Origin: Methanobacteriota archaeon
GTDB lineage: Archaea > JAADCQ01 > Methanopyri > Methanopyrales > Methanopyraceae
Length of the DNA: 64,000 nucleotides
Assembly: GCA_027064425.1 (NCBI GenBank)
Contig: JAMOPO010000052.1
Span: 140,521-204,520, forward strand
Reading direction: 5' to 3'
Shown here: positions 24,141-56,916 of the stretch, in pieces
How the letters are laid out: each line of letters starts with the position of its first letter
How positions within the stretch are numbered: the first letter of the stretch is position 1
Position numbers and translations under genes: made by a program
Notes under the pieces: model-generated
Seen by the model: only the letters and a program-made list of their open reading frames with translations
Told to the model about the DNA's origin: nothing
The model's database searches: none

Positions 24141-24665
24141 TTATCCTTTACGCGTGAACCTCCGGCTAACGCGCTCCTGACGCGACCGCTTGTTGGCACA
24201 CTCAGAGCACACGTCGACTTTCTTGTTGCTCTTAAACCTCTTACCACACAGTTTGCACCTGCACTCGTAGAGGCGCGCCCGCTTCCCCTCCCGCCTCGCC
24301 ATCCGCTTGATCCGGCTCGTCCGCTCCACCTCCCGGGTCAGGTAGAACCAGGTATCACCGAACACGTCTCGGCCCCGCATGACCACCTTCCTCGCCACCT
24401 CCAGCCCGGACGGGTCCCCCCTCATGGCCCGGACCATCGCGCTTAAGAACTGCCTCTCCCGGTACCGGTAGATGTCGATGGCGTCGTTCGGGCAGACGCG
24501 GACGCACTCGTCGCACGCGTCGCAGGCCTCCAGGTTTACGATCACGACCTCGTCGCCCTTCACATCCAGCACGCCGCGGTCGCACACCTCCACGCAGAGC
24601 GCGCAGGAGGGACCCTCGCAGCGCTCCCGATCGATCTCGATCCTTCGGACCGCCAACTCCTCCAC
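24141..24665 (-). CDS. 2x[4Fe-4S] ferredoxin fused to a C-terminal zinc ribbon
   Basis: 174 residues. The N-terminal ferredoxin has two clusters of cysteines (Cys16, 21, 24, 28 and Cys48, 51, 54, 58; CDECVRVCP). A 70-residue basic linker follows. The C-terminus has CRCKLCGKRFKSNKKVDVCSEC, a zinc-ribbon or Fpg-like finger, and an Arg/Lys-rich tail. The combination suggests a redox-active nucleic-acid- or ribosome-binding protein. The start is GTG 24665, or TTG 24656, which fits the G-run spacing better. No characterised homolog is known to me. Confidence 0.75.
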   Translation of the reverse strand: MEELAVRRIEIDRERCEGPSCALCVEVCDRGVLDVKGDEVVIVNLEACDACDECVRVCPNDAIDIYRYRERQFLSAMVRAMRGDPSGLEVARKVVMRGRDVFGDTWFYLTREVERTSRIKRMARREGKRARLYECRCKLCGKRFKSNKKVDVCSECANKRSRQERVSRRFTRKG

Positions 24666-24673
24666 CCCAGGGG

Positions 24674-25078
24674 ATGAAACGCTTGAACGTGCATGTTAGG
24701 GAGCGGGAAGGAGACGTCGTGCTGGAGTTCTGCGGGGAGGACGGGTGCATCCAGGTGTCGGCCCGGGCCTTCTACACCGCGGTGATAATGAGCGGCGAGG
24801 ACACCGTGGAGAAGACCAAGGAGCTCCTCACCAAGCCCTTCGAGCTGCTCGGGGAGGATCCCCCCGAGGTGCGCGTCCGCAGGTCGGAGGATCCGGAGGG
24901 TACCCTGCTGAACCCTTGGGTGACCTCGTCGCACGAGGAGGTCGAGTTCTTTACGTTCGAGCTGGAACGGGGAGGCGAGACTTTAAAACTCTCCTTGGCA
25001 GTCCCGCGCGGCTCTCGGGGCGGCACCTCAAAAATCAAGGAGGTCATTAACCTATTGAAGTCTCGACTCCCGTGGTGA
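24674..25078 (+). CDS. Hypothetical protein
   Basis: 134 residues, mixed alpha/beta. The N-terminus is strand-rich (LNVHVREREGDVVLEFCGEDGCIQV). The centre reads GEDTVEKTKELLTKPFELLGEDPPEVRVR, and the end reads SKIKEVINLLKSRLPW. I recognise no motif. ATG 24674 directly follows GGGG, so TTG 24683 (spacing 9) may be the true start. It precedes the PhoU-like regulator by 18 bp and is probably cotranscribed with it. Confidence 0.55.
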   Translation: MKRLNVHVREREGDVVLEFCGEDGCIQVSARAFYTAVIMSGEDTVEKTKELLTKPFELLGEDPPEVRVRRSEDPEGTLLNPWVTSSHEEVEFFTFELERGGETLKLSLAVPRGSRGGTSKIKEVINLLKSRLPW

Positions 25079-29731: not shown

Positions 29732-29760
29732 GGCGAGATCCCCGACGGGGGTGTGAAAGG
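29732..29760. promoter_or_regulatory. Shared palindromic Shine-Dalgarno element (29731 / 29761 genes)
   Basis: CCCCGACGGGGG at 29740-29751. The left arm read on the minus strand is GGGG, 8 nt before GTG 29731. The right arm GGGGG is 9 nt before TTG 29761. The gap is only 29 bp. Confidence 0.5.
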
Positions 29761-49682: not shown

Positions 49683-51037
49683 CCTCTCACCCCGCGCAGG
49701 CACTCCTCCACCAGGCTCACGAACTCATCCCGCAGCTCCCTCGCCCGCTCCTCCGACTCCGCCTCGACCGTGACCCTTACCACGGGCTCCGTGCCCGAGG
49801 GCCGGATCAGGGCCCAACCGTCCTCCAGCTCGACCCGGACGCCGTCCACGGTGTCGATCTCGTCGTAGTTCTCCCGGACTCGGCGCTCCACGCACTCCAT
49901 CACCTTCGGCTTCAGCTCGTCCGGGCACTCCACGTTCTCGCGCAGCGTTGGGTACCTCGGCACCTCCTCCAGCAGCTCCGACAGTGGCCTCCCCTCCTCC
50001 GCGAGTAGACTCACCATCCAGGCCGCGGAGAGCGGACCGTCCGGGCACATGTGCGCGTCCGGGTGGATCCACGTCCCGTTGGGCTCGCCGCCGAAAACGC
50101 AACCCTCCCGCTTGATCGCCTCCGCCACGTACACGTCGCCCACCTTGGTTCGGACCACCTCACCGCCCAGCTCCCGCACGACCTCGTCCACGACCATCGA
50201 GGCATCCACGTTGACCGCCACCTTGCCCGCGCCCTTCTCCTCCAGGATCCGCCGGCACACGAGCGCCAGCACCTCGTCGTACCCGGCGAACTCGCCCTCT
50301 TCCGTCACGAACACGACCCGATCCGCGTCCCCGTCGTGCGCGATGCCGAGGTCCGCGTCGACCGACCTCACCGTTCGCATGAGCTCCCTCAAGTGCTCCG
50401 GCCGGGGCTCCGGGTGTCGGCCCGGGAAGTGACCGTCCAGGTGCGCGTTGATCGTGATCACCTCGCAGCCCATCTCCCGAAGCACGGTCGGGGTGACCAG
50501 GGACGAGGGACCGTTCGCACAGTCCACCACGACGCGCAGGCCCTCGCCGTCCGCCTCCACCTCCCTCAGGATCCTCTCCACGTGCACCTCCGGCGCGCCC
50601 TCCTCCCGCGTGACCCCCTTAAACTCGCGCCAGTCCGGGTACTCCGGCTCCCCGTCCATGATCTCCTCGATCTCCCGCTCCTGATCCGGCGTGAACGCCA
50701 TGCCGTCCGAGTTCCAGAACTTGATCCCGTTGTACTCCGGCGGGTTGTGCGACGCCGTCACCATCACGCCCGCGTCGAGGCCCTCCTCGGACACGTAGCA
50801 GCCCAGGGTGGGCGTGCAGACCACGCCCACGTCGACGACCTCACACCCCTGCGAGAGCAGGCCCGCGATCACCGCCGAGGCGATGGCGTCCCCGTGGACC
50901 CGCGTATCGCGGCCCACGGCTACCCTCCCACCGCCCAGGTACTCACCCAGCGCTCGACCCGCTCGGAGCGCGAGCTCCGGCGTCAGAAACTCACCTACCT
51001 TGCCCCGGATGCCCGAGGTGCCGAAGTACTTACCCAC
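49679..51037 (-). CDS. Phosphoglucosamine/phosphohexomutase (GlmM-like)
   Basis: 452 residues of the alpha-D-phosphohexomutase family. FGTSGIRGKVGE opens the protein, TASHNPPEYNGIKFW contains the catalytic Ser96, DGDADRVVFVTEEG is the Mg loop, GGEPNGTW the sugar loop, and RPSGTEPVVRV the phosphate loop. Its pairing with the GlmU-like gene favours glucosamine-phosphate over mannose-phosphate. GTG 51037 has GGGGG exactly 7 nt upstream, inside the 12-bp gap shared with the tRNA methylase gene. Confidence 0.9.
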   Translation of the reverse strand: MGKYFGTSGIRGKVGEFLTPELALRAGRALGEYLGGGRVAVGRDTRVHGDAIASAVIAGLLSQGCEVVDVGVVCTPTLGCYVSEEGLDAGVMVTASHNPPEYNGIKFWNSDGMAFTPDQEREIEEIMDGEPEYPDWREFKGVTREEGAPEVHVERILREVEADGEGLRVVVDCANGPSSLVTPTVLREMGCEVITINAHLDGHFPGRHPEPRPEHLRELMRTVRSVDADLGIAHDGDADRVVFVTEEGEFAGYDEVLALVCRRILEEKGAGKVAVNVDASMVVDEVVRELGGEVVRTKVGDVYVAEAIKREGCVFGGEPNGTWIHPDAHMCPDGPLSAAWMVSLLAEEGRPLSELLEEVPRYPTLRENVECPDELKPKVMECVERRVRENYDEIDTVDGVRVELEDGWALIRPSGTEPVVRVTVEAESEERARELRDEFVSLVEECLRGVRG

Positions 51038-51049
51038 GGGGGAACCCCC
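51038..51049. promoter_or_regulatory. Shared palindromic Shine-Dalgarno element (GlmM-like / tRNA methylase)
   Basis: The entire gap between two divergent start codons is GGGGGAACCCCC. On the plus strand GGGGG is 7 nt before TTG 51050. On the minus strand GGGGG is 7 nt before GTG 51037. The spacings are identical, and no other intergenic base remains. Confidence 0.7.
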
Positions 51050-51856
51050 TTGCACGCGTTCCTTCTCGCCGGCGATAACGTCGAGCTGGCGCTGATGGAA
51101 TTAAAGGGCGCGCTCCGGGCGGAGGTGGGCGAGAGGGAGGTCGAGGTCCACGACCGGGTCGCGGTGGTCGAGGGACTCACCGACGATGAGGCGGAGCGGG
51201 TCGTTCGGCGGCTCGCCCGGACGCACGCGGTTTACCGGCTCGGTGAAGGGAACGCCAGGCTCGAGATCGGGGGCGAGCGCAGGCGGGCCCGACTCCTCGC
51301 GGAGCGCGAGAAGCTGTCCGACCGTAAGCCGCACAAGCGCCCCGAGTTCATGCCCGACTCCACGGAGCCCTTCCTGGCCCGAGCCCTGGTCAACCTGGCC
51401 GAGGCACGGCGCGGGGAGCGCCTGCTGGACCCGATGTGCAACGTGGGTGGGATCCTCATCGAGGCGGGGCTGATCGGGTGCGTACCCGTCGGAGTCGAGG
51501 TCCGGGAGGAGCTCGTGGAGCGGGCGGAGCGTAACCTGCGGCACTACGGGATCAAGGAGTACGAGCTGCACGCGGGCCGGGCGGAGGAAGTGGACGAGAT
51601 TCTGGATGAACCTGTGCAGGCGGCCGCCGTGGACCCACCGTACGGTAGGTCCTCCTACATTGAGGGGGGCCCGGTCGAGCGGCTGCTGCTGAACACCCTG
51701 GACGCGCTGTCCGAGGTCGTCGAGGGTAAGGTCTCGCTGACCGCGCCCGTGGACGCCTGGGAAGAAGTTAAAGGGAGCGTGAGAAGGGTGGAGGGCGAGA
51801 CCCGGGACCGCGTTCACCGCAGTCTCACCCGAGTCATCGCCGTTGTCGTGCCCTAG
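51050..51856 (+). CDS. tRNA (guanine-10-N2) methyltransferase (Trm11 family)
   Basis: 268 residues. A reduced N-terminal THUMP-like region (residues 1-75) precedes the methyltransferase core: RPEFMPDSTEPFLARALVNLAEARRGERLLDPMCNVGGILIEAGLIG (SAM loop) and AAVDPPYGRSSYIEGG, with the DPPYG catalytic motif of N2-guanine methylases. It forms m2G or m2,2G at tRNA position 10. TTG 51050 is fixed by the GGGGG 7 nt upstream. Confidence 0.9.
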   Translation: MHAFLLAGDNVELALMELKGALRAEVGEREVEVHDRVAVVEGLTDDEAERVVRRLARTHAVYRLGEGNARLEIGGERRRARLLAEREKLSDRKPHKRPEFMPDSTEPFLARALVNLAEARRGERLLDPMCNVGGILIEAGLIGCVPVGVEVREELVERAERNLRHYGIKEYELHAGRAEEVDEILDEPVQAAAVDPPYGRSSYIEGGPVERLLLNTLDALSEVVEGKVSLTAPVDAWEEVKGSVRRVEGETRDRVHRSLTRVIAVVVP

Positions 51857-56890: not shown

Positions 56891-56916
56891 GGATCCGCCC
56901 CCTCGGGGGTCCCAGG
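56891..56916. promoter_or_regulatory. Shared palindromic Shine-Dalgarno element (cofG / ileS)
   Basis: The 26-bp gap contains CCCCCTCGGGGG at 56898-56909. Each arm provides GGGGG exactly 7 nt before a TTG start (56890 minus, 56917 plus). No TATA-like sequence fits between the genes. Confidence 0.7.

Follow-up and report, generated by a model that had tools for sequence, protein, structure and literature searches.

Divergent genes are normally held apart by the promoters that they need, and an archaeal promoter requires a box A located ~25 nt ahead of the transcript start. In a survey of 530 genomes, divergent spacers exceeded all other kinds in length, with a mode of 135 bp and a mean of 273 bp, which was ascribed to upstream signals (PMC2784483). 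The same study describes short spacers and overlaps, the intergenic space having shrunk to the ribosome-binding site or fused with it, but does so for co-directional genes.

The gap described here lies in a 64,000-nt stretch of a contig (hereafter, the window) from Methanopyrus, a thermophilic, methane-producing archaeon, and shares features with each of these arrangements. As in divergent pairs that share a promoter region, the two genes are read outward from adjoining starts, yet there is no room in the gap for the promoter elements (box A/BRE) of either gene. As in the co-directional case, the intergenic space is reduced to ribosome-binding sites, but the pair is divergent. The sites themselves resemble other archaeal Shine-Dalgarno sites in being G-rich, complementary to the CCUCC of 16S rRNA and located 7 nt before the start. 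They differ in that the main form in Methanopyrus is GGGGG, not GGAGG or GGTGA, and in that two copies on opposite strands are interlocked, each being the spacer of the other.

Two Shine-Dalgarno sites in a 12-bp gap

The sequence GGGGGAACCCCC constitutes the entire intergenic space between glmM and a tRNA methyltransferase gene (Table 1). It is bordered on the left by CAC, the minus-strand GTG of glmM, and on the right by the TTG of the methyltransferase. The plus strand reads GGGGG, AACCCCC (7 nt) and TTG, while the minus strand reads GGGGG, TTCCCCC (7 nt) and GTG. The central AA serves as spacer for both genes, and all other bases belong to the ribosome-binding site of one gene and the spacer of the other. 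A previous sequence-only reading of this locus had taken the 12 bp for the complete intergenic region, with both spacings at exactly 7 nt and every base acting as binding site or spacer for both genes; inspection of the two strands, base by base, bears this description out. The 12-mer occurs once in the window, the mean for shuffled sequence being 0.06.

Table 1. Features at the glmM/methyltransferase junction (positions in the window)
Feature	Position	Strand	Basis or remark
glmM, archaeal phosphoglucosamine mutase, 452 aa	49679..51037	-	TIGR03990, E 8.4e-180
glmM GTG start	51035..51037	-	residue-1 alignment, TIGR03990, conservation
Gap GGGGGAACCCCC, two interlocked Shine-Dalgarno sites	51038..51049	unstranded	sequence; 5/5 genus genomes
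Methyltransferase Shine-Dalgarno site GGGGG	51038..51042	+	spacer 51043-51049 (7 nt)
glmM Shine-Dalgarno site GGGGG (CCCCC on plus strand)	51045..51049	-	spacer 51038-51044 (7 nt)
Methyltransferase TTG start	51050..51052	+	N-terminus kept from codon 2 in five species
Trm-G10/Trm11-like tRNA guanine-N2 methyltransferase, 268 aa	51050..51856	+	PF01170, E 5.9e-20
Speculative candidate box A for glmM, TTTAAT	51100..51105	-	~63 nt upstream of GTG, in methyltransferase coding region

A covariance search identified the 16S rRNA 3′ end as GGATCACCTCCA in four members of the genus; in the window's own assembly, the same search detected no 16S 3′ end. Matches to GGATCACCTCCT were discarded as 16S 3′ ends, their loci not being 16S genes; the covariance search located the true ends. 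GGGGG pairs with the terminal ..ATCACCTCCA, forming 5 bp with CCUCC that include one G-U pair. Across called Methanopyrus starts, GGGGG is found upstream of 33-36%, compared with 0% of internal control codons. The modal spacing in 1.2 Mb of Methanopyrus sequence is 7, the value seen at both focal genes, and it remains 7 in gene calls made without regard to Shine-Dalgarno sites. No Shine-Dalgarno site is commoner in the genus than GGGGG at a spacing of 7. It is no special element: the parts are ordinary, while the packing of two of them into 12 bp is not.

In folding calculations, GGGGGAACCCCC can also pair with itself in a hairpin that hides the site at 37 C but does so less near 98 C. We considered temperature-dependent hairpin masking as a form of regulation and rejected it, since folding of this kind follows from the G and C runs and gives no indication of regulation.

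Conservation of the gap and of both starts

We compared five Methanopyrus genomes, namely the window's own assembly (G000; 57 contigs, 68% G+C in the sampled contig), G001, G002, G003 and G004. G002 we take to be strain AV19, with a genome of 1,694,969 bp, from which the window's assembly is distinct. All five carry a gap of 12 or 13 bp (GGGGGAACCCCC, GGGGGACCCCCC, GGGGGGTCCCCCT, AGGGGGTCCCCCG and GGGGGGACCCCCC), made up of G and C save for one to three bases. Despite the difference in gap length, every position from -12 to -8 is occupied by G in 10/10 cases, i.e., at both starts in all five species. The Shine-Dalgarno position of each gene has thus stayed fixed relative to its start in evolution, even as the start codons themselves switched among ATG, GTG and TTG: glmM begins with GTG in G000, G001 and AV19, TTG in G003 and ATG in G004, and the methyltransferase with TTG in G000, G001, AV19 and G004 and GTG in G003. 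Conservation in other Methanopyrus genomes had been proposed as a check on the original observation, and the layout is kept in five of five species.

Ten invariant positions would be unexpected without selection, because, of the 32 fourfold-degenerate sites of glmM in the five-species alignment, 30 have changed and only 2 are invariant. Treating sites as independent, the probability of ten invariant positions is ~1e-12 if the fourfold rate is applied and 5e-9 if the rate of third codon positions is used; of the latter, 5/29 are invariant in the methyltransferase and 11/79 in GlmM. Such conservation argues that the 12-bp layout is not due to chance.

The two starts are supported by homology and conservation. 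An in-frame GTG upstream of the glmM start, at 51055 in this strain, raises the alternative that at least one of the two starts has been wrongly assigned, the true gap being wider or the genes overlapping. This GTG has no counterpart in AV19 or G001 in an alignment read by eye. Moreover, the first residues of GlmM and of archaeal relatives with solved structures (e.g., 1wqa, 2f7l and 9du5) align with each other, the TIGR03990 match of GlmM starts at residue 3, and both proteins, the methyltransferase N-terminus included, are conserved from the second codon onward in five species. We consider misplaced starts highly improbable.

The methyltransferase itself is UPF0020/Trm-G10-like and matches PDB 5e71 from residue 87 (E 3e-32). 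With ~86 residues ahead of the catalytic domain, compared to ~146 in Thermococcus Trm11 (5e71), the THUMP part in this shortened N-terminal portion seems to be reduced or absent. A 238-aa open frame runs antisense to the gene (51101-51817, minus strand) and is scored as coding by a composition-based caller; it is likely a by-product of high G+C content. AV19 looks mosaic in this region, its glmM side resembling G001 (0.89-0.98 identity) and its methyltransferase resembling G000 (0.80-0.94), with the changeover just past the 12-bp gap, ~40 nt into the methyltransferase gene. Further downstream, G001 carries different DNA.

Short divergent gaps in Methanopyrus

A search of 101 archaeal genomes for the exact layout (a start, G5, 1-2 intervening bases, C5 and a start) returned Methanopyrus only, with the focal junction recovered in 5/5 species; there was no match in the 96 non-Methanopyrus archaea, and none to a reversed control pattern. 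The layout is not unique to glmM and the methyltransferase. A second, unrelated pair, encoding a PRC-barrel protein and a carbamoyltransferase, shows it in AV19 and G001, where the gap is CACGGGGGATCCCCCGTG, both genes start with GTG and the whole forms a perfect 18-bp palindrome. In G000 and G003, the same pair has interlocked gaps of 15 and 13 bp, respectively.

This palindrome, like the near-palindrome between the focal genes, could be taken to mean that the dyad GGGGG-N-CCCCC is a regulator's operator or a shared promoter element, its likeness to ribosome-binding sites being secondary. The operator of a dimeric regulator would call for constant half-site spacing, yet the inner spacing changes between N1 and N2 by species, whereas each G run keeps the same distance from the start codon of its gene. 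In addition, GGGGG precedes about one-third of all genes at the same spacing, co-directional ones included, and Methanopyrus genomes show no excess of the dyad itself. An operator therefore strikes us as very unlikely. That the gap is a chance product of a 68% G+C genome, with no function beyond general composition, is barely credible: although GGGGG-N1-3-CCCCC is seen 8-21 times per Methanopyrus genome, all five species have kept the gap while synonymous change has reached saturation, and the layout is never seen in archaea whose genomes contain as many such runs or more.

Rather, the focal pair exemplifies a tendency, found across the genus, toward very short divergent gaps. In sampled stretches analyzed with a home-made gene caller, which relies in part on Shine-Dalgarno sites to choose its starts, gaps of 10-30 bp separate 16/93 divergent pairs in AV19 (600 kb) and 20/96 in G000 (605 kb). 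Pooled, this makes 36/189 (~19%) for Methanopyrus vs 0/76 for eight other archaea of 35-71% G+C run through the same caller (Fisher p 2e-6). The caller missed the focal methyltransferase in the window, picking an antisense frame; without its Shine-Dalgarno term, it still finds short gaps at 11/91 and 16/94 pairs. Their distribution along AV19 is uneven (13/33 pairs in 200 kb, 3/60 in the next 400 kb), and the clustering includes the region that holds the window.

By length, the short gaps cluster at 24-29 bp, with the two sites back to back and pointing outward (CCCCC-GGGGG), and near 13 bp, with the sites interlocked; several are kept between species. Further gaps consisting of two Shine-Dalgarno sites only were seen at G000:C52:100600-100612 and 120024-120036 and at AV19 G002:C1:89201-89218, and within the window at 24657-24682, 29732-29760 and 56891-56916. 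Seemingly, such gaps are a class particular to Methanopyrus. They are unusual because divergent spacers are otherwise the longest kind (PMC2784483), and our literature search found no published description of short divergent gaps in Methanopyrus.

Transcription starts and the meaning of the gap

Since 12 bp cannot hold an archaeal promoter, we infer that transcription of both genes starts inside or beyond the coding sequence of the partner. Elements described in M. kandleri include TTTAAA as box A at CRISPR leaders (PMC3695527) and the palindrome CGTTA-N9-TAACG, located ~10 bp downstream of about half of the tRNA genes (PMC5217627). The TTTAAT listed in Table 1 is a speculative box A for glmM and is absent from G001 and G004. 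The block of TTA codons in the methyltransferase gene, AATTAAAGG, was rejected as a conserved box A, being shared by G000, G003 and AV19 only; we leave it as speculative because AV19 looks mosaic there and G001 and G004 are without the block. When the regions upstream of divergent starts with short gaps were scanned strictly for box A (TTTAAA, one mismatch), no enrichment was seen (1/76), and AT-rich octamers were weakly enriched in the first 65 nt of short-gap coding sequences (7/62 vs 17/404, p 0.03). On these two results, we therefore infer the placement of the promoters rather than assign it.

Our reading of the observed sequence, geometry, conservation and start homology is that the 12 bp very probably represent two ordinary Methanopyrus Shine-Dalgarno sites in the shortest space that keeps both at 7 nt. 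The 5′ end of each mRNA would lie upstream of its GGGGG, within the coding sequence of the partner gene or past it. Each GGGGG would then pair with the 16S CCUCC, including one G-U pair, in its own mRNA, the complement of each site forming the spacer of the other gene, and both sites would be used in translation. These are sites of a known type in a new packing that is conserved through the genus. The earlier claims of a double ribosome-binding site and of extreme compaction find support in sequence, geometry and genus-wide conservation, so that the sequence-only reading was right in essence; it was incomplete in that GGGGG is ordinary, other pairs are alike and the promoter puzzle had been missed. 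For the genus at large, the evidence leaves it evenly balanced whether there is a lineage-specific class of two-Shine-Dalgarno gaps (~13 and 24-29 bp) with promoters in the partner genes and 5′ antisense overlap of the mRNAs as the usual state.

For annotation, the findings offer a rule for choosing starts in Methanopyrus, namely GGGGG at 7 nt, mostly followed by GTG or TTG. A gap of 12 bp also forces the question of where transcription starts, and Methanopyrus offers about 20 such pairs per 0.6 Mb on which to ask it. As the conserved 12-bp gap illustrates, translation signals alone can fill a divergent intergenic space.
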